Below, piece by piece: positions 1 through 33,944 of a DNA stretch of 37,959 nt. Location: positions 1 to 37,959 of IMG/VR virus record IMGVR_UViG_3300021962_007582. One strand, 5' to 3'. Both the position numbers and the translations under genes were made by a program. The notes below the pieces were generated by a model that was not told the DNA's origin, did not search any database, and saw only the letters and a list, made by a program, of their open reading frames with translations. Numbering within the stretch: position 1 is the stretch's first letter; every line of letters begins with the position of its first letter. This DNA comes from a virus.

Positions 1-456
1 TCTATGGAGAAAAAATTTAGACTACATCCAGATATTGATGATGGGATGTTAGATAACGGTAAATTAGCTAATATTACTACCCATCAAAGAGTAGAAACAT
101 GGGCTGGAGGTCATCCAATAGGGTATGCCGTTAATAAATTACACCAATCAATATTGGATAAAACAGCTCAAAATTTTCTATTTATACGATACGAGGATTT
201 ATGTGCTAATCCAAAGCCACAACTAGATTCAATCTATAGATTTTTTGGTCTAGAACCATTTGAACATGATTACAACCACATCCCTCAAATCACAGTTGAA
301 GACGATACAGTTCATGGAATATATGGAGATCATATTATTCGAAATACATTAGGTATGTTACCTGATGATTCTAAAGAAGTTTTAGGACAATATACCGCCG
401 ATTGGATTTACAACCAGTATAAGTGGTATTATGATACGTTCGGTTATAAAAAATAA
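1..456 (+). CDS. Sulfotransferase, C-terminal part (5' end outside window)
   Basis: Partial gene. The frame is open from base 1, so the in-frame ATG at 4 need not be the start. The visible ~150 residues match the C-terminal half of PAPS-dependent sulfotransferases: a FLFIRYEDLCANP segment, then a helix ending in YRFFGLEPF, then a terminal WYYDTFGY. By family knowledge the enzyme moves a sulfuryl group from PAPS to a hydroxyl or amino acceptor; the PAPS 5'-phosphosulfate loop would lie upstream and cannot be checked here. The next two genes look like PAPS-making enzymes, which supports the call. The acceptor is unknown; virion glycans or host surface polysaccharide are possible (inference). 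Confidence 0.75.
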   Translation, partial: SMEKKFRLHPDIDDGMLDNGKLANITTHQRVETWAGGHPIGYAVNKLHQSILDKTAQNFLFIRYEDLCANPKPQLDSIYRFFGLEPFEHDYNHIPQITVEDDTVHGIYGDHIIRNTLGMLPDDSKEVLGQYTADWIYNQYKWYYDTFGYKK

Positions 457-459
457 TTT

Positions 460-894
460 ATGCTATTAGTATTATTTGGACAACCCCACAGCGGTAAGTC
501 GACTTTAGCGAAAAAAATCTCAGCCGACCATTATATCGACGGAGATGATCTTAGAAGTATTTTTGTAAACACAGACTACAGTAGGGAGGGTAGGATAAAG
601 AATCTTAACCGAGCCAGTGATATTGCTGTGTATTTAGATAAGAAAGGGTATGACGTAGTTTTATCTTTAGTATACCCTATTAAAGAAGCTAGAGAATATC
701 TCAACAATCTTTCAAAAGAAGTGTTTTGGGTTTACCTAACCTACGAAGGAGAGAGAGGAAGAGAAAATTATCATGTAAAAGATTTTGAATTTCCAACAGA
801 AGAGCGTATATTGTCATTAGATACGTCTAAGGTTGATGTAGATGAATGTATTAAATCAATTAAAAGGTATATAGATGAAAAATCACTTAGTTAA
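460..894 (+). CDS. cysC: Adenylylsulfate (APS) kinase
   Basis: 144 aa. P-loop GQPHSGKST at residues 7-15, then IDGDDLR at 26-32, the signature region of APS kinases (usually LDGDNxR), then NLNRASDIAVYLDKKGYDVV, matching the helix-strand unit after the family's substrate loop. The enzyme phosphorylates adenylylsulfate with ATP to give PAPS, the donor for sulfotransferases. It is shorter than typical bacterial CysC (about 200 aa), so it is a compact form. It begins 3 nt after the sulfotransferase stop and overlaps the following nucleotidyltransferase by 20 nt, so the three are probably co-translated. A related small kinase of another specificity is the main alternative, but the context favours APS kinase. 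Confidence 0.8.
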   Translation: MLLVLFGQPHSGKSTLAKKISADHYIDGDDLRSIFVNTDYSREGRIKNLNRASDIAVYLDKKGYDVVLSLVYPIKEAREYLNNLSKEVFWVYLTYEGERGRENYHVKDFEFPTEERILSLDTSKVDVDECIKSIKRYIDEKSLS

Positions 895-1261
895 AGCAGC
901 AAGCAAGTCAGGAAGGTATGCAATGTTTATCGGAAGATGGCAACCCTGGCATCCAGGACATCAATGGCTAATTGATCAAGCTCTTGATGAGGGAAAAGAT
1001 GTCTTACTATGTATTAGAGATGTGGAACCAGATGAAAAGAATCCTTGGACTCCTCATCAAGTAATGTCAAATCTATTTAATGAACTTAAGAGTTTGGTCG
1101 AAGCAGGTAGAGTTAGGGTTATTATTATACCTGATATTGAATCTATTAATATTGGTAGGGGTGTTGGTTATGACATTATAGAGCATGTACCGCCTCAAGA
1201 AGTACACGATATTTCTGCTACAAAGATTCGTGAGCAAATGAAAGCAGAGGGGAAGCTATGA
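875..1261 (+). CDS. HxGH-family nucleotidyltransferase, possible APS-forming enzyme
   Basis: 128 aa. The adenylyltransferase/cytidylyltransferase fold is shown by GRWQPWHPGH (HxGH at residues 26-29) and ISATKIR (113-119), the two nucleotide-binding motifs of the superfamily. The middle carries RGVGYDIIEHVPPQEVHDIS, as in nucleotidyltransferases that I recall adjacent or fused to APS kinases. In that context it may adenylylate sulfate to APS, doing the job of ATP sulfurylase; this is inference. NMN or pantetheine-phosphate adenylyltransferase activity is the alternative. It overlaps the APS kinase by 20 nt and the next gene by 4 nt (ATGA). An in-frame ATG lies at residue 17, but a start there would cut the first strand close to its motif. 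Confidence 0.7.
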   Translation: MKNHLVKAASKSGRYAMFIGRWQPWHPGHQWLIDQALDEGKDVLLCIRDVEPDEKNPWTPHQVMSNLFNELKSLVEAGRVRVIIIPDIESINIGRGVGYDIIEHVPPQEVHDISATKIREQMKAEGKL

Positions 1262-1470
1262 TCGTAGATAAAAAACGACATATTGCTAAGACAGTCAGCT
1301 ATCGAATCGTGAGTACTTTGATAGGCTTTGTGATTATGTGGATTGTAAGTGGAAATGTAAAAGTAGGAGCCGCTTTTGGAATAGCAGAACTAATCTACAA
1401 ACCTGTTCAGTACTATCTTCACGAAAGGATTTGGTATAAGTGGATAAAGTTTGGTCTCAAGAAAGATTAG
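1258..1470 (+). CDS. DUF2061-like small membrane protein
   Basis: 70 aa. Starts KKRHIAKTVSYRIVSTLIGF, contains two hydrophobic helices (about residues 18-33 and 36-52) and ends YYLHERIWYKWIKFG. The RHIAKTxxYR start and YYLHERxW end are the hallmarks of DUF2061 proteins as I recall them; these are often found beside or fused to sulfate-assimilation genes. The start codon overlaps the nucleotidyltransferase stop by 4 nt, so it belongs to the same operon. Biochemical role is unknown; a part in sulfate handling at the membrane is a guess from context. Confidence 0.7.
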   Translation: MIVDKKRHIAKTVSYRIVSTLIGFVIMWIVSGNVKVGAAFGIAELIYKPVQYYLHERIWYKWIKFGLKKD

Positions 1471-5485: not shown

Positions 5486-6238
5486 ATGGCTGAAAAGTTT
5501 ACACTCCCTACAGAAACTATTGAATTACCTTCTCAAGGTAAAGTCTACGACCTTACAAACCCTCTTTCTTCTGGTACTATTGAAATGAAGTACATGACAG
5601 CACGAGAAGAAGACATTCTAACCAATGTAAACCTATTAAAACAAGGGGTTGCTATTGAAAAGATGTTACAGTCGTTGATTAAATCTCCCATTAAATATGA
5701 AGATCTATTACTGGGAGACAGGAACGCTCTTTTAATAGCAGCTCGTATTCTAGCTTACGGTTCTTCCTATAGCTTTGAGTATTATGATGCAGAGGATGAT
5801 AGAAAGGAACAGATTACTGTTGACCTGCAGACTTTAAAGAATAAAGAAGTAAGTTATTCCTTATATAAGAACAAGAATGAGTTTAGTTTTGAGTTACCGC
5901 ATTCTAAAAATGTAGTTACTTTTAGACTTCTTACTATTGAAGATGAAAAAGCTATTGAAGCTGAAATAAAGGGGTTGAAAAAAGCAAACATAACTGCCGG
6001 TGAAATCACAACCAGGTTAAAAAAGCAAATTCTCTCAGTAAATGGCGATTACGAACCGAAAAACGTAAGAGATTTTGTAGACAACTACCTTATTGCTAAA
6101 GATTCTAATCCTTTGCGTACCTATATTCAGAGTATCACTCCTGATATTGATCTAACCATTAGTTTTACCCTAGCAAGTGGGAAAGAGGTAGAGGAGAGCC
6201 TCCCGCTGACGGCGGAATTTTTTTTTCCCGGGAGTTGA
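5486..6238 (+). CDS. gp26-like baseplate hub / tail assembly protein, frame-0 product
   Basis: 250 aa. The pattern TETIELPSQGKVYD, then GTIEMKYMTAREEDILTN, KMLQSLIKSP, GDRNALLIAARILAYG is that of T4 gp26-type baseplate hub proteins of T4-like phages as I recall them. It ends at TGA 6236-6238, just after nine T (6218-6226). The next frame is open across this point and continues a conserved-looking domain to 6497, so this is probably the short form of a frameshifted pair, as in lambda G/GT. Position directly before the tape-measure gene fits a tail assembly chaperone role. T4-like baseplate membership and chaperone role are not mutually exclusive. Confidence 0.7.
   Translation: MAEKFTLPTETIELPSQGKVYDLTNPLSSGTIEMKYMTAREEDILTNVNLLKQGVAIEKMLQSLIKSPIKYEDLLLGDRNALLIAARILAYGSSYSFEYYDAEDDRKEQITVDLQTLKNKEVSYSLYKNKNEFSFELPHSKNVVTFRLLTIEDEKAIEAEIKGLKKANITAGEITTRLKKQILSVNGDYEPKNVRDFVDNYLIAKDSNPLRTYIQSITPDIDLTISFTLASGKEVEESLPLTAEFFFPGS
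6218..6227 (+). other. Predicted programmed frameshift site (T9-C)
   Basis: Nine T followed by CCC GGG. In frame 0 the ribosome reads GAA TTT TTT TTT CCC. Slipping Phe-tRNA from TTT (6224) to TTC (6225) is a +1 shift that improves pairing and enters the frame of the downstream domain; a -2 slip gives the same frame. Transcriptional slippage or an error of one T in the assembly would look the same. Confidence 0.6.
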
Positions 6239-6497
6239 GTATCGTCAAGTCTTTAAAAGAGAAGTTTTCGAACTTACTTACCATGGCGGAGGCGGGTTTT
6301 CATGGTCTGAAGTCATGGATATGCCTGTGGCTGAAAGACGGCTTAATATTAAGTTTATCACCGAACATTTAGAGAAACTCCAAGAAATTCGTAATGAACG
6401 GCAAACAGTTACAGCCGATAAGCCTTTGACAGCCAAACCTGGAATTAAATCTCTGGATACTACTCCGACCTACACCTCTAAGGTAAAAAAGAAGTAA
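6228..6497 (+). CDS. Frameshift extension of gp26-like protein (gp51/GT-like domain)
   Basis: 89 codons in the +1 (or -2) frame relative to the upstream gene, open through the join. The translation reads PGVEYRQVFKREVFELTYHG, then GGGFSWSEVMDMPVAERRL, a helical RNERQ-containing segment and a Lys-rich end. The FSWSEVxxMPVxxRR pattern resembles second domains of tail assembly chaperones. A conventional start exists only at ATG 6315, which would remove the first 29 residues although they look coding; no ATG, GTG or TTG lies in frame upstream of it within the open stretch. The fusion product would be about 336 aa. T4 places the small gene 51 beside 26, so a gp51-like role is the alternative reading. 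Confidence 0.6.
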   Translation, partial: PGVEYRQVFKREVFELTYHGGGGFSWSEVMDMPVAERRLNIKFITEHLEKLQEIRNERQTVTADKPLTAKPGIKSLDTTPTYTSKVKKK

Positions 6498-6502
6498 ATA
6501 GC

Positions 6503-6518
6503 TATTTATTTGTATAAT
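6503..6518 (+). promoter_or_regulatory. Candidate late promoter upstream of tape measure gene
   Basis: TATTTATTTGTATAAT, starting 30 nt before the ATG at 6533. Very close to the elements at 2087 and 22966. Confidence 0.45.
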
Positions 6519-6532
6519 AGCTTTGTAACTTT

Positions 6533-8833
6533 ATGTCATTAGCACAAAATCCACTCAGTCCAGAAGAAAGAGAACAAAGATCACGAGTCGAAAGACTGGA
6601 ACGTGAACAACTCGCCTGGACTAATATACTTAGGTTAAGAGGTAAGATTAAAGATGCTGCTAAAGAGCAAGAAGCTTTTGATAAAGCGATAGCTAAACTA
6701 CAAGGACAACAAGCACAAGAAGCTGCTCGCTATCAGGGAAAGCTAAATGTAATAAAAACTCTAGAACAGAATTTAATTGCTGCTAAGCAAAGCGGTAATC
6801 AAGCAGTTGCTAGACAGGCTAAGAATATGCTCGATCAACAGCAAGCTCAGTTAAAAAATTTATTAAAAACTGAAGGAGGTGCATTAGCTGCTAGAAAAGC
6901 TCAAGCAGAAGCAACAAGGAAAGCCCTGACTGCTGAACGGGATTTAATTAAAGATATTAATAAGCAGCGAGGAATTACTAGCAGAATTGCGGACCTTTTT
7001 AGGAGTAAGGAAGCGAGACAGAGACAAATAGACATAGCTCGTATACAAGCTGGTGGCGGAGGTAATAGAGGCGGTGGCGGCGGAGGTAGTGTAACAGGAG
7101 CTGCTGCTGCAGGAGCTGCTGCAGGTGGACCCTACGGTGCTTTAGCAGCAGGATTAGCAGCTTTTGTACAAGGAATTAAAAATACTATTGCACAGATCGG
7201 TAAAGTAATTTTTAATTTTCTTGCAGGCCCTTTACAACAAATATCAGGTTTAGTTTCCGGAGGTATTGGTGGAGGGTATGGAGTTGGTGGTGGAGCAATT
7301 TCAGGCGGCGGTGCAACAAGTATACTCGGAGGCTTTCAACAGATAGCTAGTCAAATTCCTTTTATTGGAGGATTACTAAGCGGTTTAATAGGAATTTTCA
7401 AAGGGGTAGTAGATTTAGTTTTAGGTCTTGATCAAGGTATTACTAACTTTGCCCGCAATCTCGGTATCTCTAAGACGCAAGCTAAGGGCATTAAAGAAGA
7501 ATTTAGAGCTATTGCTAAAGCTAGCGATAATATAGTAGTCAACGAGACTAGGTTAATGGAGTCTCAAGTCGAATTAACAAGAGCACTCGGGGTTAGAAAT
7601 CAATTTGCAGGAGATGCTCTTGAAAATAATATTAAGCTAAAAGAAGTAGCAGGTATTGAATTAGAAACTAGAAAAGCTATTGTACAGACTAGTATAATTC
7701 AAGGTAAAAGCGCTACACAGCTTACAAAAAATGTTTTAGCACAGTCTAAAGCTTTTGAATTTCAAACAGGTATTGCTTTTGAGTACAGAGAGGTATTAGG
7801 GGAGGCTTCAAAACAGGCCGGAGTATTAGGTTTAACCTTTACTAAATATCCTGAGAAACTTACTAAAGCTCTAATGACTACAAAAGCTATGGGTATTGAG
7901 CTTAAGCAGCTTGATGGAATAGCTAGTAGCTTTTTAGATTTTGAAAGTAGTATCTCCAAGGAAATAGAAGCTCAAATACTTACAGGTAGGGAACTTAATT
8001 TAACAAAAGCTCGTGAAGCTGCTTTAAATAATGATCTCGTAACTGTAGCTAAAGAAATAACATCTCAGGTTGGTAGTACTGACGAGTATTTAAGGATGAA
8101 TAGAATCCAACAAGAAGCAATTGCTGAATCTGTTGGTATGACTAGAGACGGTTTAGCTGATGTTTTAAAACAGCAAGACTACTATAGAAAATTAGGGGCA
8201 TCGAATTTAGAGCAAGCACAAAAAGAGTTAAGAATTTTAAAAGAGAAAGGACTTACTCAAGAAGAGATTAGTAAAAGAATTGGTGAGGATGCTTATAATT
8301 ATATCACCCAGACCTCTACAGCTGAACGCCTTACTGAATTAATGAATAGAATTAAGACAGTTTTTGTTGAGTTTGTTGAGAAATCAGGTATACTAGATTT
8401 TATTACTAATCCAGATAAGATTCAAGGATTTGTAACAGGACTTATAAACAAGTTAGCAGGAGCTGTTAACATGGTAGGAGAAATCGTAGCAGGAATTGTA
8501 GAACTGGTAGCAGACGTTACAGGATTCTTTAGTGAAGATAGAGCAGCGAAACTTAGAGGACTTGCCTCTTCGGTTAGATCTGGTGCATCAGGGTTTGCAG
8601 GCGGTATAACTGCTGCTACTTCTGCTATGGGCGGAACAACTGCTCCATCAGTAGGAGCTGTATTGGAGAGAGGTACAAGAGGTGAAATAACTGCACCATC
8701 TGCCGTATATGGACCAGTACCAGCAGCTGCAGGTAATCAAACCACGACTGTTTATATGGTAATAGACGGAGAGGTAATTGCAAAACAAGTTGTCGGAAAA
8801 GTTCCAAGTATGTTTCAAACTAATCTCAAATAA
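6533..8833 (+). CDS. Tail tape measure-like protein
   Basis: 766 aa. Residues about 10-170 are a long charged coiled coil. A Gly-rich linker (about 173-186) leads to an Ala/Gly-rich hydrophobic region (about 190-300, including GPYGALAAGLAAFVQG) as seen in tape measure proteins that may enter the host membrane. The remainder is helical (about 310-620), with a second Gly/Ala-rich hydrophobic stretch near the C-terminus. Position directly after the frameshifted chaperone-like pair matches the chaperone-tape measure order of tailed phages. In T4 the length-determining role belongs to gp29. Sequence-level homology to a named family is not certain. Confidence 0.7.
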   Translation: MSLAQNPLSPEEREQRSRVERLEREQLAWTNILRLRGKIKDAAKEQEAFDKAIAKLQGQQAQEAARYQGKLNVIKTLEQNLIAAKQSGNQAVARQAKNMLDQQQAQLKNLLKTEGGALAARKAQAEATRKALTAERDLIKDINKQRGITSRIADLFRSKEARQRQIDIARIQAGGGGNRGGGGGGSVTGAAAAGAAAGGPYGALAAGLAAFVQGIKNTIAQIGKVIFNFLAGPLQQISGLVSGGIGGGYGVGGGAISGGGATSILGGFQQIASQIPFIGGLLSGLIGIFKGVVDLVLGLDQGITNFARNLGISKTQAKGIKEEFRAIAKASDNIVVNETRLMESQVELTRALGVRNQFAGDALENNIKLKEVAGIELETRKAIVQTSIIQGKSATQLTKNVLAQSKAFEFQTGIAFEYREVLGEASKQAGVLGLTFTKYPEKLTKALMTTKAMGIELKQLDGIASSFLDFESSISKEIEAQILTGRELNLTKAREAALNNDLVTVAKEITSQVGSTDEYLRMNRIQQEAIAESVGMTRDGLADVLKQQDYYRKLGASNLEQAQKELRILKEKGLTQEEISKRIGEDAYNYITQTSTAERLTELMNRIKTVFVEFVEKSGILDFITNPDKIQGFVTGLINKLAGAVNMVGEIVAGIVELVADVTGFFSEDRAAKLRGLASSVRSGASGFAGGITAATSAMGGTTAPSVGAVLERGTRGEITAPSAVYGPVPAAAGNQTTTVYMVIDGEVIAKQVVGKVPSMFQTNLK

Positions 8834-8835
8834 TT

Positions 8836-9066
8836 ATGATTATTCTCGATCAAATAAAAACTTCAAAACTCAGTAAACAGGGACGAACTAATCCCACAGG
8901 TGTTTTCGAAGGTACCCCTGAAAATGTAGCTCTTGTCGAGAGAGGAGTTCAAGTACCGGTAACATCTCGTGCTGTACCTCCTATTCAGAATCCGATTGAT
9001 ATTAGTACTAACAGTGTTGCGCAACCTACGTACCTCGATTTTTTAAGATCCTCACCAGCCAAGTAA
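8836..9066 (+). CDS. Small hypothetical virion-region protein
   Basis: 76 aa, starting 2 nt after the tape measure stop and ending 1 nt before the next gene, so translationally linked to both. Pro/Thr/Val-rich, no hydrophobic helix, no motif recognised; ends YLDFLRSSPAK. Probably a minor baseplate or tail component by location. Function unknown. Confidence 0.55.
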   Translation: MIILDQIKTSKLSKQGRTNPTGVFEGTPENVALVERGVQVPVTSRAVPPIQNPIDISTNSVAQPTYLDFLRSSPAK

Positions 9067-9067
9067 T

Positions 9068-11155
9068 ATGCCATTAATAGATTTTAAGACAAACTTAACC
9101 AGCCTCAAGTACGGACTTGATCAACCAGGCGGTGGATATAGCGGGCAACCTTATATTCAAAATCCTATTGAAGGTCCTGATACTCCCTCTGGTACGAGAA
9201 GGTATTATGAAATTAATAGAACTAGTTTAGATTTTCCAATTAGAGGTGGTGCAATATCGTCGCTAGTAAGCGGAGCTTTTTCTGCTTTTACTGCAACAGT
9301 AGATAGGGAGAGAATTCAAAAATTTTTTAAAGACGCTCCACGCGGTACTGCCTTTATTCAAAAGCAAGTAGGACTACAGCTGACTAATCCAAGAACTCAA
9401 GTACCTAATACTATTCAATTTGCAGGCGGTATATTAGGTAATGCTGTACTACCTGTTACTCAGACTTACAATCCTTTAAATACTCTAGCTCAGGTACAGG
9501 TACAGGGTACAGGAGCTCATTTTAATAGACAAGGTGTTGTTCCTACAATAACTGAAAGCCTGCAGCAAACGTACGAGTATATTGCTGGTGCGCCGCAAAA
9601 TAATACTGCTAGTACAAATAGACTTCTTATTTTAAAGTCTTTGAAGTTAGGAAATCTAAGCGGCTTTGCTCCCACAAGAGGAGATATTATTAACGTCGGT
9701 GTAGCTACGGATAAGGTCGAAGAATTAGGTATTTCTACGATAAATAACCAACTATTTAACTATACAGGAGGTCCTGGATCAGTGTACGGTATTGGAAATA
9801 CTAGAATTTTTAGGTACACTAATACAGAAGCTACTAACCTCTTAGATAATAGTACTACAGGTTTTACTATTGGCGGTAATCCAACACCGGTAGGTGTCTC
9901 TCGTCCATATTCTGCTATTGCTTTGACCTATCAACAACTAGCCGATCAAGATACCCGGACAACTAATCCGGTATCACCAACAGAAGCTACTATTCAAGAC
10001 TTTAGACAAGATACTAATAACGGTAGTCCTGTTATTCCTTGGACAGATTACTCGATTTATAATATTGCAAGGCCTTACGACGGTATTGCAGGAGGTTTAG
10101 GAGTAGGAAATCCTGGTGAGCCTTTAAGGCAGTCTAGTTTTCTTTTTTCAAAACCAGGAGGGGTAGACTTGTTAAATAAAGTAAACCCTTTTTATTATAA
10201 CGCCAATACTGAAACTCCTTGGACAGCAGGAGGAAATGATACGAAAGATATAATTAAGTTTGCTTTCGAATGCATGTCTAATGATAACCCAGACTACGCA
10301 GTAGCTTTAATTTTTAGAGCTTTTCTTGAAGGGCAGATTTCAGATAGTAACTCAGCAGAGTTTGATTCGTTTAAATATTTAGGTAGAGGTGAAACTTTTA
10401 GAACCTATCAGGGTTTTGATAGAACTATCGGGTTTGGTTTTAAGATATTTGCACAAACAAGAGAGGAGATGAGACCTCTTTACACTAAGTTAAATACTTT
10501 AATATCTCAAACATACCCAGACTACTCTCCGACATCTAAATTAATGCGAGGATCTGTTGTTAGGCTTACGATTGGTGATTATATTTACAGGATGCCTGGT
10601 TTTATCGAAAGCGTAAACGTTTCTATTGATAACAGTACTACTCCATGGGAAATCCAGTTACTAGGAGCTGCTAGTGAGTCTGATGTAGCACAGTTACCTC
10701 ACATGGTTACTGTGTCTTGTACTTTTAGACCTATTATGGATCTTTTACCTTCTAGGGTAACAATGAAAAATCCCCGTACATCGTTAATAGGTAATGTAGA
10801 TAAGGATACCTTTATCGGCAATATTGTAGATAAAACACCAGCACCTCAAATAACTATACCACAAGATGAAGAAATAGTAATTGTAGAAGGAGACGCAAGA
10901 ATACCGGCAATACAGGTAGGGGCTAATTCTCCTGATACTACTATAAAGAAAAAAGCAGTAACAAATAAAACTAATAAGCAAATTGCAGCTAAGAAAAATG
11001 CAAAAGCTAAACAAGCTTACATTCCTAACGGACCTTCCTACGGCATTGGATTAACTAATCAACCAGGAAGAACCTCTACTCCTGCTCCATCTAACAGAAG
11101 TAATGTAAATCAGTTTAGACCACAAGGTGCTCCTGGACAGTTTGGAGGTTTTTAA
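9068..11155 (+). CDS. Baseplate / tail-tube initiator-like protein
   Basis: 695 aa. The N-terminal two thirds are rich in Asn, Thr and Gly with no motif I recognise. Near residues 485-565 it carries GSVVRLTIGDYIYRMPGFIE, then TTPWEIQLL, then QLPHMVTVSCTFRPI. This pattern is like the tube-like domain of T4 gp48/gp54 tail-tube initiators and related baseplate proteins, where QLPHxxxVxxxFxPI is a recurring end. The C-terminus is Lys/Ala/Pro-rich and probably disordered. Placed just before a LysM/gp53-like gene and the hub gene, it most likely belongs to the baseplate-tube junction. Confidence 0.55.
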   Translation: MPLIDFKTNLTSLKYGLDQPGGGYSGQPYIQNPIEGPDTPSGTRRYYEINRTSLDFPIRGGAISSLVSGAFSAFTATVDRERIQKFFKDAPRGTAFIQKQVGLQLTNPRTQVPNTIQFAGGILGNAVLPVTQTYNPLNTLAQVQVQGTGAHFNRQGVVPTITESLQQTYEYIAGAPQNNTASTNRLLILKSLKLGNLSGFAPTRGDIINVGVATDKVEELGISTINNQLFNYTGGPGSVYGIGNTRIFRYTNTEATNLLDNSTTGFTIGGNPTPVGVSRPYSAIALTYQQLADQDTRTTNPVSPTEATIQDFRQDTNNGSPVIPWTDYSIYNIARPYDGIAGGLGVGNPGEPLRQSSFLFSKPGGVDLLNKVNPFYYNANTETPWTAGGNDTKDIIKFAFECMSNDNPDYAVALIFRAFLEGQISDSNSAEFDSFKYLGRGETFRTYQGFDRTIGFGFKIFAQTREEMRPLYTKLNTLISQTYPDYSPTSKLMRGSVVRLTIGDYIYRMPGFIESVNVSIDNSTTPWEIQLLGAASESDVAQLPHMVTVSCTFRPIMDLLPSRVTMKNPRTSLIGNVDKDTFIGNIVDKTPAPQITIPQDEEIVIVEGDARIPAIQVGANSPDTTIKKKAVTNKTNKQIAAKKNAKAKQAYIPNGPSYGIGLTNQPGRTSTPAPSNRSNVNQFRPQGAPGQFGGF

Positions 11156-23335: not shown

Positions 23336-25198
23336 ATGGAGGTAAGTAGTAGTATTCTTTCGGATTTAACAGTATACATGAAGTATGCGAAATTTAACCC
23401 TGAAAAAGAGAGGAGAGAAAGCTGGGAGGAACTAGTGGATAGGAATAAAGATATGCACTTAAAGAAATTTCCGCAGTTGACTCAAGAGATTGAAGAAGCT
23501 TACAAGTATGTATACGAGAAGAAAGCACTTCCTTCTATGAGATCTATGCAATTTGCTGGAAAACCTATTGAGATTAGTCCTAACCGTATTTACAACTGTG
23601 CTTACCTTCCAATCGACGACTGGAGAGCTTTCGGAGAAGTAATGTTTTTGCTTCTAGGCGGAACAGGAGTAGGATATTCTGTGCAGAAACATCACGTAGA
23701 TAAATTGCCGGAGATAAGAAAACCGGATTCTAAGAAGCATAGACGTTTTCTAATTGGAGATAGTATTGAAGGATGGGCCGATGCAGTAAAAGTACTGGTT
23801 AAAGCCTATTTCGAAGGAGGATCTACCCCTGTATTTGATTTTTCTGATATCCGACCAAAGGGTGCTGCGTTAATAACCTCAGGAGGAAAAGCTCCAGGTC
23901 CGCAACCTCTTAAAGAGTGCTTGCTTAAAGTACAAGGTATTTTAGATAGTAAAGAAACTGACGATAGACTAACTTCGATTGAAGTGCATGACATGGTATG
24001 TCATATTGCTGATGCTGTCCTTGCTGGAGGCATACGTAGAGCAGCTCTTATTAGTCTATTTAGTGCTGACGATGAAAATATGATTGCTGCTAAATCTGGT
24101 CATTGGTGGGAGCTCCATCCTCAACGAGGCCGTGCTAATAATTCAGCAGTACTCCTAAGGAATAAAGTAACAGAAGAGTTCTTCTACGACCTTTGGGAGA
24201 AAATTAAAGCTAGTGGAGCTGGTGAACCCGGTATTTATTTTAACAACGACAAGGATTGGGGTACTAACCCGTGCTGTGAAATTGCACTACGTCCTTTTCA
24301 ATTCTGTAACCTATGTGAAGTCAATGTAAGCGATGTTGTCGATCAAGAAGACTTAGATGCAAGAGTTAAGGCCGCTACGTTTATCGGCACTCTACAAGCT
24401 TCTTACACTAGCTTTCATTACCTAAGGCCGGTATGGCAGCGTACTACCGAAAAAGATGCTCTAATCGGAGTAGGTATGACTGGAATCGGATCAGGTGCTG
24501 CACAGAAGTTAGATCTTAAACAAGCAGCAGAAGTAGTAAAACAGGAGAATGAAAGAGTAGCTAAGTTACTCGGTATTAATTCTGCTGCTAGATGTACTAC
24601 TATCAAGCCTTCTGGTACCTCCTCTCTTACATTAGGTACTTCAAGCGGTATTCACGCTTGGCATAATGATTATTATATTCGAAGAGTGAGAGTAGGTAAA
24701 AACGAAGCAATTTACACCTACCTAGCAATTAATCATCCAGAACTTGTAGAAGACGATTACTTTAGAGCACACGATACTGCTATTATCTCTGTACCGCAGA
24801 AAGCTCCAAAAGATGCAATTTATAGATCAGAGTCTGCACTAGACTTATTAGAGAGAGTTAAGCATTTTTATCAGAATTGGATAAAGCCCGGACATAGGAC
24901 TGGAAGCAATACTCATAATATTTCTGCTACAGTATCTATTAAAGCAGAAGAATGGGAAGAGGTAGGTAAGTGGATGTGGGAGAATAGAAAATTCTATAAC
25001 GGTCTTTCAGTTTTACCTTACGATGGCGGTACCTATATTCAAGCTCCGTTTGAGGATTGTACAGAAGAGGAGTACAACGAAAAAGTAAAGAGTCTCCATA
25101 GTGTAGATCTTTCTCGAGTTGTAGAATTTGCTGACAATACAAACTTAGCAGGAGAGGCGGCTTGTGCTGGTGGAAGCTGTACAGTAGAGTCTTTTTAA
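23336..25198 (+). CDS. nrdJ: Adenosylcobalamin-dependent (class II) ribonucleotide reductase
   Basis: 620 aa. Reduces ribonucleotides to deoxyribonucleotides using B12 radical chemistry, so no small subunit is needed. The key cysteines of monomeric class II reductases (Lactobacillus type) are present: C88 in YNCAYLP and C324 in FQFCNLC form the reducible pair, C313 in NPCCEIAL is the thiyl radical site with E315 two residues on, and C610/C615 in CAGGSC at the C-terminus shuttle electrons. LLLGGTGVGYSVQKH matches the family. No N-terminal ATP cone is seen and the protein is shorter than the Lactobacillus enzyme (about 740 aa). It depends on host or environmental cobalamin. Confidence 0.87.
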   Translation: MEVSSSILSDLTVYMKYAKFNPEKERRESWEELVDRNKDMHLKKFPQLTQEIEEAYKYVYEKKALPSMRSMQFAGKPIEISPNRIYNCAYLPIDDWRAFGEVMFLLLGGTGVGYSVQKHHVDKLPEIRKPDSKKHRRFLIGDSIEGWADAVKVLVKAYFEGGSTPVFDFSDIRPKGAALITSGGKAPGPQPLKECLLKVQGILDSKETDDRLTSIEVHDMVCHIADAVLAGGIRRAALISLFSADDENMIAAKSGHWWELHPQRGRANNSAVLLRNKVTEEFFYDLWEKIKASGAGEPGIYFNNDKDWGTNPCCEIALRPFQFCNLCEVNVSDVVDQEDLDARVKAATFIGTLQASYTSFHYLRPVWQRTTEKDALIGVGMTGIGSGAAQKLDLKQAAEVVKQENERVAKLLGINSAARCTTIKPSGTSSLTLGTSSGIHAWHNDYYIRRVRVGKNEAIYTYLAINHPELVEDDYFRAHDTAIISVPQKAPKDAIYRSESALDLLERVKHFYQNWIKPGHRTGSNTHNISATVSIKAEEWEEVGKWMWENRKFYNGLSVLPYDGGTYIQAPFEDCTEEEYNEKVKSLHSVDLSRVVEFADNTNLAGEAACAGGSCTVESF

Positions 25199-26373: not shown

Positions 26374-26574
26374 ATGAAGTGTCTTAAAAATTTAAAAACA
26401 GGAAATATCATCCGAGTAGATGATAAACAAGCTCACAGTATGGCAGGCAGAGAATGGCAGTACGCCTCTAAGGTAGAGTGGAAATCTGCTACACGTGTAC
26501 CTACTCCTATTGTAGAAGCGGTAAAAGAGGAACTTACAGTGTCTGAAAAACAATTAAAGCGTAATAAAAAATGA
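26374..26574 (+). CDS. Small hypothetical protein
   Basis: 66 aa. Contains LKNLKTGNIIRVDDKQAHSM, then REWQYASKVEWKSATR, a two-strand plus helix pattern I recall in short phage proteins (KNLKTGxIxRVxDxxAxxL...W.Y..K.EWK). The tail is Lys-rich. It overlaps the queE start by 4 nt (ATGA). A small regulatory or DNA-binding-like role is possible, but no evidence is visible. Confidence 0.55.
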   Translation: MKCLKNLKTGNIIRVDDKQAHSMAGREWQYASKVEWKSATRVPTPIVEAVKEELTVSEKQLKRNKK

Positions 26575-27464
26575 GTAAAATAGATCCAAACAAATTACTA
26601 ATTTCTAGTGACTTCTACTCTGTCCAAGGTGAGGGTATCTCATCAGGAGTGCCCTCTTACTTTGTTCGTTTAGGTATTTGTAACCTAACTTGCGGTATGA
26701 GTAGAGCATTCACCAATCAGTTATTAAAAGACCAAAACTTAGAAGATGGTGAAATATTCGAAGGTGATTTACATAAAGAAGGTAAAGCAACTTGGACTTG
26801 TGACTCTACTTCTCAGTGGTTATGGAGAGGTGAAGATAAAGAGTTCCAATATCTATTAGATAGATTTAAAGAAGAAGGTGTATACGATGATATTAAGGAT
26901 GGTAACATTCATATTATATGGACTGGTGGTGAACCTACAATTAAAGGGCATCAAGAAGCAATTTTTAATTTTCATAAGTACTGGGAAGATGTAGACCCAT
27001 CTATAGTAAGAGAAATAGGTGTAAGTAGCTATGATACTACTACTAAACCTGCATTTTATAATCAATACTATAATTTTAATGAGATAGAAACAAATGGTAC
27101 TGTAGTAATTGAAGATGATTTATTTAGAATACTTGATCAAATTAACTGCTCACCTAAGTTATCCAATTCAGGTATGACTGAAAAACAACGTATTGTACCT
27201 GCTGCTATTAAGCGTATTATGGAACATAAAAATTATCAATTTAAATTCGTAATCAGCAATGAAGAAGATGTATTGGAACTTTTTAGGGACTTTGTCGTAC
27301 CATTTAGCATACCTCTTAAGAATGTAGTTTGTATGCCCGGACTGGATGATGTAGCTAATTTTGAAGAGCGTACTCAATTCTGTTTGGAAATGGCTAAGAA
27401 GTATCGTTTCCGCGGTCTTACAAGATTGCATATTGCTGCTTGGAACAAAACATTAAACGTATAG
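26571..27464 (+). CDS. queE: 7-carboxy-7-deazaguanine synthase, QueE with inserted cluster loop
   Basis: 297 aa. Radical SAM enzyme of the preQ0 route. VQGEGISSGVPSYFVRLGIC is the family start. Normal QueE has a C-x3-C-x2-C cluster motif; here C37 and C41 (ICNLTC) are followed by the third Cys only at C77 (WTCDS), giving C-x3-C-x35-C. The DS after the third Cys and the downstream IIWTGGEPTIKG (SAM-binding GGEP) are conserved, and FNEIETNGT is a substrate-site strand. The inserted ~33-residue loop is Glu/Asp-rich. It should make 7-carboxy-7-deazaguanine from 6-carboxytetrahydropterin. Confidence 0.85.
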   Translation: MSKIDPNKLLISSDFYSVQGEGISSGVPSYFVRLGICNLTCGMSRAFTNQLLKDQNLEDGEIFEGDLHKEGKATWTCDSTSQWLWRGEDKEFQYLLDRFKEEGVYDDIKDGNIHIIWTGGEPTIKGHQEAIFNFHKYWEDVDPSIVREIGVSSYDTTTKPAFYNQYYNFNEIETNGTVVIEDDLFRILDQINCSPKLSNSGMTEKQRIVPAAIKRIMEHKNYQFKFVISNEEDVLELFRDFVVPFSIPLKNVVCMPGLDDVANFEERTQFCLEMAKKYRFRGLTRLHIAAWNKTLNV

Positions 27465-29507: not shown

Positions 29508-30440
29508 ATGAAAAAACAAGCAGTTTTAAGTCTCAGCGGTGGGATGGATTCTTCGTCTCTTTTGCTGCACTTGTTAGCAAATGGTTATGAAGTTACAGCA
29601 CTTAGTTTTGACTATGGACAAAAACACAGAGTAGAACTCGAACGTGCTACTGAATTAGTCGAGTATATTAATTGGAACCCAGCAAGAGTATTTCACCATG
29701 ATCATGCTCCTGATGGGTTTGAACAAAAATATCCGTTAGTAAAACATCAAATCATTAAGCTAGACGGATTACAGAAACTACTTAATTCAGCCTTAGTTGA
29801 AGGCGGTAAAGATGTCCCTGAAGGACATTACGAGCAGGATAACATGAAAGAAACTGTTGTACCTAACCGTAATAAAATTTTTAGTTCCTTAATTCAAGCA
29901 GTTGCTTTATCCCTAGCTACAAAGCCTATAGGTGATGATTGTACAGTAAGACAAGAGGTAAAGATTGCATTAGGTATTCATGCCGGTGATCATGCAATTT
30001 ACCCTGACTGTAGACAAGAATTTAGGGATGCAGATATGGAAGCATTTAAGATCGGTAATTGGGATGCTACTTTAGTTGATTTTTATACACCTTACTTGGA
30101 TACTGATAAGTTCGGTATTTTACAAGACGGAGAAAAATGCTGTGAAGTGTTGGATTTAGATTTTGACGAAGTATATAAGCGCACAAATACATCTTATAAA
30201 CCAATTTGGATACCTAAAGCTCAAACATTAGATGGAGACGTAGTTCTTTATCAATCGAAAGAAGGATATTGGTTTAGTGATTATAAATCAGCAGCATCAG
30301 TAGAACGTATTGAAGCGTTTCTTAAGCTAGGTCGTCCTGATCCGGTAGATTATGCTGATGAAACTGGTCCTGTAGGTTGGGAAGTAGCAAAGTCTCATGT
30401 AGAGAATGTATTGGCTAGTCATAAAAAAGCAAACGTATGA
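29508..30440 (+). CDS. queC: 7-cyano-7-deazaguanine synthase, QueC, without the usual zinc cysteines
   Basis: 310 aa. ATP-dependent conversion of 7-carboxy-7-deazaguanine to preQ0. N-terminal PP-loop SLSGGMDSSSLLLHLLANGY is the ATP-binding signature and ALSFDYGQKH the substrate-side strand; VVPNRNKIFSSLI and HAGDHAIYPDCRQEF are further QueC blocks. Standard QueC is about 220-230 aa and ends with a zinc site (CY...CGxCxxC). Here the equivalent C-terminal part reads TNTSYKP, and later YKSAASVERIEAF, with no Cys after C212, so the zinc site is gone and ~80 residues are added. It overlaps dpdA by 4 nt (ATGA), so translation is coupled. Confidence 0.88.
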   Translation: MKKQAVLSLSGGMDSSSLLLHLLANGYEVTALSFDYGQKHRVELERATELVEYINWNPARVFHHDHAPDGFEQKYPLVKHQIIKLDGLQKLLNSALVEGGKDVPEGHYEQDNMKETVVPNRNKIFSSLIQAVALSLATKPIGDDCTVRQEVKIALGIHAGDHAIYPDCRQEFRDADMEAFKIGNWDATLVDFYTPYLDTDKFGILQDGEKCCEVLDLDFDEVYKRTNTSYKPIWIPKAQTLDGDVVLYQSKEGYWFSDYKSAASVERIEAFLKLGRPDPVDYADETGPVGWEVAKSHVENVLASHKKANV

Positions 30441-31216
30441 TAAAAATCAGTCACGAAATACCGAAAGCATTATTTGACCGTCATGATTCTATTTCAGACT
30501 ATCCTTATGTATTAGGTCATTTGTTAAATCTAGATACAGAGTATGCTGATTTTTATAAACAAAAATTACAGACAGTAGATTATTCTATACTAGATAATTC
30601 AGCGTTTGAATTAGGTAAATCCATTCCAATGGAAGAACTGTATGAGTTGGGTAGGGAGTATAATCCTACTCATCTCGTACTTCCTGACGTAGTAAATGAT
30701 CATAACCAGACCTTAGATAATGCTAAAGAGTATTTAGCTAGGTACGGTGAGGATAAGCAAAAGCTTATCGGTGTCTGTCAAGGAGATACTTTTGAGCAAA
30801 TTGCTGATTGTATTGATTTTTATATGCAGAAGGATGTGGATATTATTGCACTACCTTTCGATCTAGTAAAAGATTCAGACTACATTACTGTGAGATTTAG
30901 ATTTTTAAACTGGTGGTATAGTAATAGGTTTAAGTTTACAGGAAGAACTCCTAAATTTCATTTACTGGGTTGTCAGAATCCTGTAGAGTTTTCTCTCTTT
31001 AAGTATAACCAGAAACATATTTCAAGATTTATTTACTCTTTAGATACAAGTTCTCCTGTTATAAACGGGTGGATAGGTAACGAATTAGGTCCTCACGGGT
31101 TAATTGTACCGAAACCAAAAGCTAAACTTGCAGATAATCTTGATATTACCCTAACACAAGATCAAGTTGATCTTATTTATAAAAACGTAAAAACCTTTCG
31201 TCAATATGTCAATTAA
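30437..31216 (+). CDS. dpdA: DpdA-like DNA 7-deazaguanine transglycosylase
   Basis: 259 aa, TGT-like TIM barrel. Catalytic features: ILDNSAFELG puts D53 where tRNA-guanine transglycosylase has its general-base Asp (DSGGF); VLPDVVNDH and LIGVCQGDTFEQI follow the TGT pattern (xGxxQG); YSLDTSSPVING places D203 at the nucleophile position (TGT: DxxxPTRxxRxG). The CxCxxC zinc site of tRNA enzymes is absent. By family knowledge DpdA exchanges guanine in DNA for a 7-deazaguanine base. The neighbours queC, queF and a formyltransferase support DNA modification. The DpdA subfamily cannot be fixed by eye. It overlaps both neighbours. Confidence 0.8.
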   Translation: MIKISHEIPKALFDRHDSISDYPYVLGHLLNLDTEYADFYKQKLQTVDYSILDNSAFELGKSIPMEELYELGREYNPTHLVLPDVVNDHNQTLDNAKEYLARYGEDKQKLIGVCQGDTFEQIADCIDFYMQKDVDIIALPFDLVKDSDYITVRFRFLNWWYSNRFKFTGRTPKFHLLGCQNPVEFSLFKYNQKHISRFIYSLDTSSPVINGWIGNELGPHGLIVPKPKAKLADNLDITLTQDQVDLIYKNVKTFRQYVN

Positions 31217-32126
31217 TAACATGTCAGAAGCCGCCGCTAGATCTCTAGGTTCGGCTAATAGCTACGCAGTTTATACAGATAAGTTTGACCCTAGTCAACT
31301 CAATCCCATGCCCCGTATTCTCGCTCGTCAAGATTGGGGTATTACTGGAAATGAATTTACAGGTTATGATACTTGGCATTGCCATGAAGCTACGTTTCTT
31401 CTTAGCAATGGATTACCTGTAGCAGGTACTTTAAAGATCGTATGTCCATCTGATTCGGAATTTATGGTAGAGTCAAAATCTTTTAAGCTCTACTTAAATA
31501 CTTTCGATATGTGTAAAATGGGAGATACGATTAGTGAAGCAAGTAGAAACTACGAAAATCAAGTTAGAAAGGATATTAGCGATTGTATTAAAGCTCCAGT
31601 AAAAGTTACTTTTTTTAATTCTGGAGAAGATGAAGAATTGCAAGCAGATCCAGCACAGGGTTTTATCGATCTTTACAAGTCTATTTCCGACGAAGCATTA
31701 GCTACTATGGAAATCACTGATTATAATGCTTCAGGGAAGTATGAAATTATATTGCAGGACGGAGAAATAGGAGAAGATGCTTCTTATTTTACTAACGTGT
31801 TAAGATCTCGTTGCAGACATACTAAGCAAAAAGATACCGGTGCTGCTTACTTTCGAATTATAACTAAAGAAGGATCTGTAAGCCAAACAGAACTTTTAAA
31901 ACTTGTTATTTCTCTAAGGGAAGTAAATGAATTCCATGAGTTCTGCGCTGAAAAACTCTATACTGAGATTATGTCTAACCCTTTAGTACAGGATTGCTGT
32001 GTGATGCTACTCTATGCACGCAGAGGGTCTTTGGATATTTGTCCAGTTCGAGCTAGTAGAGAGTCTTTAATTCCTGAGGCTTTGAGTTCTGCAAAATATT
32101 ATACTAAAAAAGCAATGGGACAATGA
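31206..32126 (+). CDS. queF: 7-cyano-7-deazaguanine reductase, QueF
   Basis: 306 aa, the length of long (E. coli type) QueF. NADPH-dependent reduction of preQ0 to preQ1. The family motif FMVESKSFKLYLNTF is present, the catalytic Cys is C203 in LRSRCRHTKQKD with D210 seven residues on (as C190/D197 in E. coli), and LREVNEFHEFCAEKLY follows the His/Glu helix. The presence of QueF implies that the modification goes beyond preQ0 to the aminomethyl stage. It overlaps dpdA by 11 nt and the next gene by 4 nt. An alternative start at 31221 (MSEAA) is possible. Confidence 0.88.
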   Translation: MSINNMSEAAARSLGSANSYAVYTDKFDPSQLNPMPRILARQDWGITGNEFTGYDTWHCHEATFLLSNGLPVAGTLKIVCPSDSEFMVESKSFKLYLNTFDMCKMGDTISEASRNYENQVRKDISDCIKAPVKVTFFNSGEDEELQADPAQGFIDLYKSISDEALATMEITDYNASGKYEIILQDGEIGEDASYFTNVLRSRCRHTKQKDTGAAYFRIITKEGSVSQTELLKLVISLREVNEFHEFCAEKLYTEIMSNPLVQDCCVMLLYARRGSLDICPVRASRESLIPEALSSAKYYTKKAMGQ

Positions 32127-32683
32127 TAAAAGTACAAGAAGACTGGGGAGTACTAGTATCACAGACTGGATCGGAGATTATTGCGATAAGTAAAAAGATT
32201 AGGTTTCTCCCAAGTCTTCTTGTAACTAATCATCTATCTAGGATACCTCAAGATAACTTGAGATTCTTTGGAGAAAACGGTGTGACAATAAGATCGACAC
32301 CCTTTAGACCTACTCTCGAAGATTATCTTATTCCAGAATTGCTAGAAAAGAAGTTAATTACCTTACACGGCTTTTTGAGAATACTACCCCCTGCTTTCTT
32401 TCAGCAATATGCCGGAGAGCTGTATAACGGTCATCCTGGACTAATCAACCACTTTCCAGAGCTTAAAGGAAAAGATCCTCAGGTTAGAGCCTGGGAAGGA
32501 AATTACGGTATAGTAGGTTCGGTAGTACATAAGGTAATAGAGGGTGTAGATGAAGGAGAAATAGTCAGGTATGCTGCTACCCCTAATACAGCTCGAAGTT
32601 TAGACGATATGTATGCCCTACTTCGAGAAACTTCTCTCGATGCCTGGGAGAGATTTTTTAAGAATAATTGGAACTTTGAATAA
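32123..32683 (+). CDS. dpdN: PurN-fold formyltransferase, DpdN-like (predicted preQ1 formylation)
   Basis: 186 aa. The formyltransferase fold is recognised by ITLHGFLRILPPAFFQQY, then LYNGHPGLINHFPELKG and the GVDEGEIV end strand. The catalytic set of GAR-type enzymes is kept: N102 and H104 in NGH, D143 in VDEG. It has no purine-pathway neighbours but overlaps queF by 4 nt in a 7-deazaguanine DNA-modification operon. A PurN-like enzyme called DpdN was predicted in published work to formylate the aminomethyl group of preQ1 in DNA, so the same role is most likely here. A purine salvage role remains possible. Confidence 0.72.
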   Translation: MIKVQEDWGVLVSQTGSEIIAISKKIRFLPSLLVTNHLSRIPQDNLRFFGENGVTIRSTPFRPTLEDYLIPELLEKKLITLHGFLRILPPAFFQQYAGELYNGHPGLINHFPELKGKDPQVRAWEGNYGIVGSVVHKVIEGVDEGEIVRYAATPNTARSLDDMYALLRETSLDAWERFFKNNWNFE

Positions 32684-32698
32684 AAGTACTTACTTTTA
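32666..32698 (+). promoter_or_regulatory. Bacteroidota-type promoter
   Basis: AATTG (32666-32670), exactly 20 nt, then TACTTTTA (32691-32698), 13 nt before ATG 32712. The -33 box overlaps the dpdN end. Likely drives the P-loop and folE genes. Confidence 0.55.
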
Positions 32699-32711
32699 AG
32701 AAAACATCTTC

Positions 32712-33230
32712 ATGAAAATACTCATTGGCTCTCACGGAACTGGAAAGACTACATTACTAAAGGAGGTAGCTACTCGATTTCCGGATTATTATGTTACAGA
32801 CGGATTCTCTAGACCCGTTTCTAAGATTGCTAAATATTTAGAGTTTTCAAACAACGAAAAGCAGTTTGTAATTAATGAACTATCTGCTTGGGCTTATCAA
32901 AACTATCTATCTCATAAAAATGTAATAAGTACCCGGAGTGTTGTAGACTGTATTATATACTCTCAAATAGTAGCTCCTGATGTAGACGTTAAAGCAATGT
33001 TAGACTTATTCCAACAAACTAAAGAGCAAGTAGAGTATTTTTTCTATATTCCTATCGAGTTTGCTTATGTAGTAGATGATGAAAGACCTGATGGTGTGTG
33101 GCAAGAGTTACAAGCTAAGATCGATAAAGTTATACAAGATTTTATCAAAGAGTATATTCCTGCAGAAAAAATTATAACTTTAACAGGAACAGTAGAAGAA
33201 CGTTTAAACCAAATATCTTTATACCTATAA
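32712..33230 (+). CDS. P-loop NTPase (AAA_28 / NadR-like)
   Basis: 172 aa. Walker A SHGTGKTT (residues 8-15) at the very start, a VISTRSVVDCIIYSQ Walker B-type strand and EQVEYFFYIPIEFAYVVDDE as a late core strand. This organisation is that of small nucleotide or nucleoside kinases of the AAA_28/NadR-like group. The substrate cannot be read from the sequence; nucleotide metabolism is likely given the neighbouring folE and dCTP deaminase-like genes. It begins 13 nt after a host-like promoter and ends 3 nt before folE. Confidence 0.6.
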   Translation: MKILIGSHGTGKTTLLKEVATRFPDYYVTDGFSRPVSKIAKYLEFSNNEKQFVINELSAWAYQNYLSHKNVISTRSVVDCIIYSQIVAPDVDVKAMLDLFQQTKEQVEYFFYIPIEFAYVVDDERPDGVWQELQAKIDKVIQDFIKEYIPAEKIITLTGTVEERLNQISLYL

Positions 33231-33233
33231 TTT

Positions 33234-33944
33234 ATGAGTAGAGACAAACATATTGAGATTGAAAAGTTAGAACTAGCACAAGCTGGTCATGCAAATGGTA
33301 TTAGTCTTCAGTTGAAAGAAGCTATTGAGAATGGAAGTCATAAACTAAGTGATTATGACAAGCATCAGATTATCGAAGAAGCTGCACTTTACTACGGTAA
33401 GTTTCTTACTGCACTCGGTGTAGATTGGGAAAATGATCCTAATAGCTCTAATACTCCTAAGAGAGTTGCTAAGGCTTACGTAAACGATCTATGGAAAGGT
33501 AGGTACGAGCAACTAGACTCTGTTACTAGCTTTCCTGCCGACGGCTACGACGGTGTAGTTTTCGAAGGAGGTATTCCTATTACAAGCATGTGTAGTCACC
33601 ACCATCAGACTATTAACGGACTATGTCATATTGCTTATGTACCTACCCTAGAAAGTAGGGTAGTAGGTCTAAGCAAGCTAAACCGTATTGTAGAGCATTT
33701 TAGTAGACGAGGTGCAATTCAAGAGCAGCTAACTGTAGCTATTCATAACGCTGTAGATAAGATCTGTGAAGGTAATATTGGTGTAGCTGTAATGATTGAA
33801 GCAACCCATAACTGCGTAAGCTGTAGAGGGGTTAAACATCAGGGTGCTAGCATGAAAACTTCTAAACTCTCAGGATGCTTCCTCGAAGAAGATGCAGCTA
33901 GAGCTGAATTTTATGAGTTTATTAAAGGGTATCCAAGAAGATGA
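33234..33944 (+). CDS. folE: GTP cyclohydrolase I, FolE
   Basis: 236 aa. Converts GTP to dihydroneopterin triphosphate, the entry step to preQ0. Signature blocks: SNTPKRVAKAYVNDLW, MCSHHHQTINGLCHIAYVP with zinc ligands C120 and H123, VVGLSKLNRIVEHFSRRGAI, the QEQLT helix and THNCVSCRGVKHQGASMKTS with C194 as third zinc ligand. The N-terminus is about 40 residues longer than minimal forms and is helical. The ATGA overlap with the next small gene indicates coupling. Together with QueD, QueE, QueC and QueF the phage has the complete path from GTP to preQ1. Confidence 0.95.
   Translation: MSRDKHIEIEKLELAQAGHANGISLQLKEAIENGSHKLSDYDKHQIIEEAALYYGKFLTALGVDWENDPNSSNTPKRVAKAYVNDLWKGRYEQLDSVTSFPADGYDGVVFEGGIPITSMCSHHHQTINGLCHIAYVPTLESRVVGLSKLNRIVEHFSRRGAIQEQLTVAIHNAVDKICEGNIGVAVMIEATHNCVSCRGVKHQGASMKTSKLSGCFLEEDAARAEFYEFIKGYPRR

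Follow-up and report, generated by a model that had tools for sequence, protein, structure and literature searches.

PAPS synthases, among them human PAPSS1 and the SAT/APS kinase of Aquifex, pair an HxGH adenylyltransferase with a P-loop APS kinase, and a sulfotransferase acts later in the pathway; the phage locus described here has the same pairing. Human PAPS synthase requires its HNGH motif, and the sulfate contacts modelled for it are arginines (PMC11697783). Two types of ATP sulfurylase, Sat and CysDN, are generally recognised (PMC3779200). Viral cysC genes (PMC12713726) and viral sulfotransferase genes (PMC8290583) have been reported as auxiliary metabolic genes, in both cases without validation, and in the open-access literature we found no report of phage sulfation with PAPS synthesis, of a function for DUF2061, or of a novel ATP sulfurylase. 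We consider it likely that the locus is a self-contained sulfation cassette, in which a compact adenylyltransferase (NT) would make APS, an APS-kinase-like protein (KIN) would convert it to PAPS, and a sulfotransferase (ST) would use PAPS to form a sulfated product, NT thus being a third, compact type of ATP sulfurylase.

A putative sulfation cassette in an aquatic phage

The window, by which we mean the whole stretch of DNA analysed, is an IMG/VR virus record of 37,959 bases, and the phage comes from an aquatic metagenome. The cassette has four genes:

1-456 (open at the window edge), + strand: ST, C-terminal 151 amino acids of a PAPS-type sulfotransferase (Pfam Sulfotransfer_1, 28 bits)
460-894, + strand: KIN, short APS-kinase-like P-loop kinase (Pfam APS_kinase, 32 bits; AlphaFold2 model)
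875-1261, + strand: NT, compact HxGH adenylyltransferase, proposed to form APS (CTP_transf_like match; model; fusions; exclusion of Sat)
1258-1470, + strand: DUF2061 small membrane protein, proposed accessory to sulfate activation (PF09834, 61.5 bits; cysH-cysD adjacency in Bacteroidota)

KIN and NT overlap by 20 bases and NT and DUF2061 by 4, and downstream lie tail sheath and tube-like genes and DNA replication genes. The first-pass annotation had claimed a four-gene cassette here; all four + strand reading frames match Pfam families above the curated cut-offs, and every motif that it named is present at the place it gave. Elsewhere in the window, genes for QueC (29508-30440), QueF (31206-32126) and GTP cyclohydrolase I (33234-33944) fall within 29508-33944, and the reading frames at 26571-27464 and 30437-31216 resemble QueE and a TGT/DpdA-like protein, respectively, with no Pfam match; together these suggest 7-deazaguanine DNA modification in this phage. 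A B12-type ribonucleotide reductase and a formyltransferase-domain protein are found at 23336-25198 and 32123-32683.

The ST fragment exceeds the cut-off for Sulfotransfer_1 (28 bits; cut-off 22) and falls below that for Sulfotransfer_3 (25.5 bits; cut-off 27). The complete gene is available in a near-identical contig, L002, in which KIN is 100% and NT 99% identical to the window proteins; judged by this identity, the two contigs are from the same phage or a very close one. The L002 protein (L002:3305-4132; 275 amino acids) scores 67.7 bits against Sulfotransfer_3 (PF13469; cut-off 27) and 47.3 bits against Sulfotransfer_1 (PF00685; cut-off 22), with the motif SSLPRAGSTLLQN near its N-terminus and RDLRAVFASME in mid-protein. 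It contains the N-terminal PAPS-binding loop SLPRAGSTLLQN and meets the requirements for membership of the sulfotransferases. Upstream sequence lacking a sulfotransferase fold had been named as an outcome that would refute the cassette, and that refutation does not hold.

Upstream of ST in L002 are a tail-fibre-like repeat protein, a GT9-like protein and two 2OG-Fe(II) oxygenases. The GT9-like protein, a frequent neighbour of the cassette, has no meaningful Pfam match, and it is called heptosyltransferase-like solely from how its sequence reads. Additional genes at related viral loci encode group 1 glycosyltransferases, an FkbM methyltransferase, a carbamoyltransferase and a CMP-sugar-type cytidylyltransferase, and some appear to be heptose genes. 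The repeat-rich protein, characterized by AGTQNAALAFGG repeats, lies between the GT9-like gene and ST in up to three tandem copies (L024, L025, L027-L029; L002:2260-3225). Its appearance is that of a variable tail fibre, and sulfation or glycosylation could act on it.

KIN is a divergent APS kinase and NT a shortened adenylyltransferase

KIN matches Pfam APS_kinase (PF01583) at 32 bits (cut-off 21.1) and carries the motifs GQPHSGKST, IDGDDLR and SREGRIKNLNRA. Structure prediction, which had been proposed as a check, was applied to KIN and NT. The 28 best PDB matches to the AlphaFold2 model of KIN (pLDDT 92) are all APS kinases or APS-kinase-domain proteins, including APS complexes (Z 17.2-19.5), and the best match outside this group is a gluconokinase (Z 16.6). 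By Pfam profile and fold, KIN is therefore a member of the APS kinases. It does not meet the NCBIfam apsK equivalog TIGR00455 (26.7 bits; cut-off 138.7), and its top NCBIfam match, PRK05541.1, is well under threshold (47.8 bits; cut-off 127). This low score against the apsK equivalog, together with a lid stretch shorter than in canonical APS kinases, makes KIN a divergent member of the family. A tblastn search of named phages with KIN gave no match.

NT, of about 110-130 amino acids, matches Pfam CTP_transf_like (PF01467) at 23.7 bits (cut-off 21) and meets the criterion for the HxGH nucleotidyltransferase superfamily (TIGR00125; 30 bits, cut-off 27.7). Its motifs are GRWQPWHPGH, IRD..KNP, IPDIESINIGRGVGYD and ISATKIR, and its AlphaFold2 model (pLDDT 93) has an adenylyltransferase fold nearest PPAT and NMNAT (Z of about 10; likewise in Foldseek). 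Consistent with this placement, a profile built from 78 NT sequences matches the archaeal NMNAT 1f9a (E = 4.5e-13), in its N-terminal half only. The NMNAT-like sequence in NT ends after IPDIE, about 28 residues are absent before IS(A/G)TxxR, and an invariant GRxxG(Y) stands where they are missing. Across the 78 sequences, G20, R21, P24, H26, G28, H29, G94, R95, G98, S114 and R119 are invariant.

No profile similarity to known ATP sulfurylases was detected. NT does not meet the Sat-type profile PF01747 (11.4 bits; cut-off 24.3), its profile shows no detectable similarity to four haloarchaeal Sat proteins by hhalign (0.3%), and no CysD model is among its NCBIfam matches up to E = 1. Its best 50 structural matches include no ATP sulfurylase either, which by itself does not count against a structural relationship. 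NT also does not meet the NMN adenylyltransferase profile TIGR01527 (25.8 bits; cut-off 181.2). On these profiles and the predicted model, NT is a shortened relative of the NMNAT/PPAT adenylyltransferases, outside the Sat and CysDN families. In Sat, a GRD motif (GRDHAG) lies between the core and SGTxxR, and some NT members have GRDVGY; that the two are equivalent is no more than a lead.

NT is linked to APS kinase in cellular genomes and does not co-occur with Sat in haloarchaea

NT relatives occur in at least 595 viral contigs and, beyond viruses, in several archaeal and bacterial groups. A scan of 84,980 bacterial and archaeal genomes yielded 39 loci. Haloarchaea have CysC and NT, in that order, in one protein (Natrialba, APS_kinase E = 7.7e-45), OCS116 bacteria have the reverse order, NT-CysC (E = 2.8e-65), and a DPANN archaeon has a fusion likewise with NT first. 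In TMED217 (L104), a separate canonical CysC (1.4e-67) occupies the place of KIN beside NT, and a further locus, L108, looks alike. These loci physically link NT to APS kinase as separate genes and in both fusion orders. Among the 39 genomes, Sat is found in two and a near full-length CysD in three; many of the genomes are incomplete, so this scarcity is weak evidence alone.

Sulfotransferases of several kinds also occur near cellular NT genes. One lies directly upstream in Diapherotrites, a Sulfotransfer_2 protein adjoins the fusion in a Staskawiczbacteria locus, and at a gammaproteobacterial locus a Sulfotransfer_5 protein is encoded three genes upstream of KIN on the opposite strand. Some cellular KIN-NT pairs are surrounded by polysaccharide clusters (UDP-glucose dehydrogenase, Wzz, flippase). 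In haloarchaea, CysC-NT is preceded by a gene annotated as a sulfotransferase, which also has a Pfam match, and NCBI annotates the fusion as cysC only, leaving NT unrecognised. A conserved operon of sulfotransferase, CysC-NT and a YqcI/YcgG protein was observed in haloarchaea (L112-L121, L237, L238), several of the copies being plasmid-borne.

A sharper comparison came from 242 Halobacteria genomes searched with an APS kinase profile. Weak matches occurred everywhere, and strong matches, defined as over 120 bits, in 16 genomes. Six of the 16 have Sat directly upstream of CysC and lack NT; nine have the CysC-NT fusion and no Sat, their CysD matches being partial only (about 30 bits); and one (G303) has CysC without either. 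Sat and NT never occur together in these haloarchaea (Fisher p = 2e-4, 15 genomes). The nine CysC-NT proteins are close relatives, several of them on plasmids, and the plasmid NT domains are mostly 90-95% identical; displacement of Sat therefore represents one or a few events, not nine. Two observations thus back the ATP-sulfurylase-like role that the first-pass annotation had inferred for NT, namely its occurrence in fusions with canonical APS kinases and the mutually exclusive distribution of NT and Sat in haloarchaea; the activity itself remains a prediction.

An APS-kinase-like enzyme phosphorylates a nucleotide anhydride in Campylobacter capsule biosynthesis, and NT might by analogy activate some small acid other than sulfate, for example as a phosphoramidate or phosphonate donor, with KIN phosphorylating the resulting anhydride. 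The insecure assignment of the KIN substrate at family level, as seen in its PRK05541.1 score, leaves room for such chemistry. We nevertheless regard it as improbable, because the transferases linked to NT are sulfotransferases of several kinds, a canonical CysC can take the place of KIN, and the exclusion of Sat points to sulfate.

The resemblance of NT to NMNAT raises a different question, namely whether the two proteins work together in NAD salvage, NT as an NMN adenylyltransferase and KIN as a nucleoside kinase in the manner of NadR, perhaps refilling NAD during host defence. The match of the N-terminal half of NT to 1f9a and its PPAT and NMNAT fold neighbours fit this idea, as does Stenotrophomonas phage Bhz60, where the gene adjoining the fused KIN-NT is annotated as encoding a NADAR-domain protein (L090:5151-6327). 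Against it, NT lacks the NMN-binding C-terminal half, the nearest structures to KIN are APS kinases and not ribosylnicotinamide kinases, and the sulfotransferase association would be left unexplained. Moreover, all 16 haloarchaea with a strong APS kinase have a separate NMNAT-like match (39-48 bits), indicating that NT is not needed there for NAD synthesis, and these same genomes include those in which NT is joined to a canonical APS kinase and Sat is missing. Structural matches placing NT in NAD or CoA synthesis had been named in advance as grounds for abandoning the sulfation reading: sequence and fold do lie nearest NMNAT and PPAT, but the genomic evidence (the fusions, the exclusion of Sat and the separate NMNAT-like gene) argues against such a role, and we rejected NAD/CoA synthesis as the best reading. 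Salvage in particular seems to us very improbable.

Sulfotransferases, neighbouring genes and DUF2061 in viral loci

The pairing of KIN with NT is no chance arrangement: of 85 viral loci, 84 have both, 67 have a DUF2061 reading frame and 40 have window-type sulfotransferases. We compared 42 NT-bearing virus records with 27 NT-free relatives found through the tail-tube gene, counting PF00685 matches with E up to 0.001. Such matches were found in 26 of the 42 and in none of the 27 (p = 2.5e-8), and the difference persisted among records of at least 25 kb (18/25 with NT versus 0/12 without; p = 3.7e-5). Sulfotransfer_3 was similarly confined to NT-bearing records (14/23 versus 0/27). The records are fragmentary and mutually related, and the p-values are a guide only. 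Co-occurrence joins families, folds and fusions in supporting the reading of the locus as PAPS synthesis coupled to a sulfotransferase.

PF00685 was absent from 16 of the 42 NT-bearing records, many of which are fragments and some of which have weak ST-like reading frames. These negative records include members of a freshwater group of viruses in which KIN-NT is flanked by a DUF3310-like gene and an N6/N4 DNA methylase and a window-type ST is mostly absent (L048, L051, L054-L081). PF00685 was likewise not found in four cultured phages with fused KIN-NT (DLP6, AhaSv, Bhz60 and phage 33); in these phages the fused gene may have a different role, or the sulfotransferase may come from another family.

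Two further sets of neighbours were observed. A small HAD-family protein with a weak match to the PNKP phosphatase domain is encoded at L003:4380-4727 and in 16 other loci, often between KIN and NT; its activity is inferred, and it could strip the 3'-phosphate from the PAP left by the sulfotransferase. In L084 and L085 (about 6001-9500), HldE-half-like genes, an HldD-like epimerase and a cupin lie between KIN and NT, suggesting, from gene content alone, ADP-heptose synthesis beside sulfation. The ADP-heptose pathway was considered as the purpose of KIN and NT and rejected, since the apparent HldE and HldD genes of these loci look complete alone and occur in few loci.

The window DUF2061 protein is a member of its family (PF09834; 61.5 bits, cut-off 23.1). 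DUF2061 is present in 7 of 99 Bacteroidota genomes, and in four of the seven it immediately precedes cysH and cysD, three of these four having a gene for an Rrf2-type regulator on its other flank; CysD, CysH and one Rrf2 protein were identified at these loci. In a fifth genome it follows a gene read as UDP-glucose dehydrogenase. The adjacency to cysH and cysD ties DUF2061 to sulfate activation outside phages too; that its role is in sulfate supply or membrane localisation is a guess.

This same adjacency can be taken to mean that the phage genes serve assimilatory sulfur metabolism of the host and not sulfation, and viral cysC has indeed been catalogued under assimilatory sulfate reduction, without validation (PMC12713726). 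The consumer genes that adjoin the cassette are sulfotransferases and glycosyltransferases, however, and we noticed no gene for PAPS reductase among the neighbours that recur (a statement about neighbours, not whole viral records), so we give host assimilation only a very slim chance. That NT is a non-catalytic partner of KIN, with APS coming from a host ATP sulfurylase, is scarcely credible: NT is very small and has no similarity to known ATP sulfurylases, but its HxGH and S-x-T-x-x-R motifs are invariant or nearly so in 78 diverse members, and in nine haloarchaea that carry it neither Sat nor a full-length CysD was detected that could provide APS.

A proposed pathway for sulfation

The sulfation pathway that we prefer builds on the gene order, families, folds, fusions, co-occurrence and exclusion observed above. 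By inference, and with no activity measured, NT would convert ATP and sulfate to APS and pyrophosphate, and KIN would then phosphorylate APS at the 3' position to give PAPS. PAPS would in turn serve ST as the donor of a sulfuryl group; the acceptor is most likely a sugar that the phage's own glycosyltransferases make or modify. DUF2061 is presumed to aid sulfate supply or to localise the pathway. A glycan target, whether on the virion or in the host envelope, is only an inference from the glycosyltransferase and tail-fibre-like neighbours and from the cellular polysaccharide clusters. NT itself is a shortened adenylyltransferase of the NMNAT type that lacks the NMN-binding half and has the GR(G/D)VGY motif in its place. 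We advance with considerable doubt the wider proposal that NT evolved out of an NMNAT-type enzyme, independently of the other ATP sulfurylases, and was spread among bacteria and archaea by phages and plasmids, and that phages sulfate their own virion glycans; no report was found in the literature of NT as an ATP sulfurylase, or of sulfate esters on phage virion glycans.

If the pathway is correct, a third ATP sulfurylase of about 110 residues would close a gap in sulfate activation in those haloarchaea, and perhaps those Marinimicrobia, with an APS kinase and no known ATP sulfurylase, and viral cysC genes could be read as parts of sulfation pathways, not as aids to host sulfur assimilation. 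The cassette also offers an enzyme that is small and easy to express, a possible way into the function of DUF2061, and the prediction that some phages make sulfated molecules.

Comparison with known systems

The cassette differs from PAPS synthases in its adenylyltransferase, which has only about 110-130 residues, is of NMNAT/PPAT ancestry and does not match the Sat profile. Archaeal NMNAT (PDB 1f9a, 1ej2) resembles NT over about 75 residues, sharing GRxQPxHxGH, NP after strand 2 and a weak match to SGTxIR, but NT is without the NMN-binding half, has GR(G/D)VGY, and neighbours APS kinase and ST genes, not NAD genes. Among phage proteins, the family phrog_10255 of PHROG (230 amino acids; Stenotrophomonas, Xanthomonas and Clavibacter phages) is matched by KIN in its N-terminal part and by NT in its C-terminal part; here the two are fused, PF00685 is missing from the four such phages noted above, and the annotation is only 'kinase' or hypothetical. 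In the haloarchaeal plasmid operon of sulfotransferase, 'cysC' and YqcI/YcgG, NT forms one protein with a canonical CysC and no DUF2061 was seen, but the make-up of ST, APS kinase and NT is the same as in the phage cassette.
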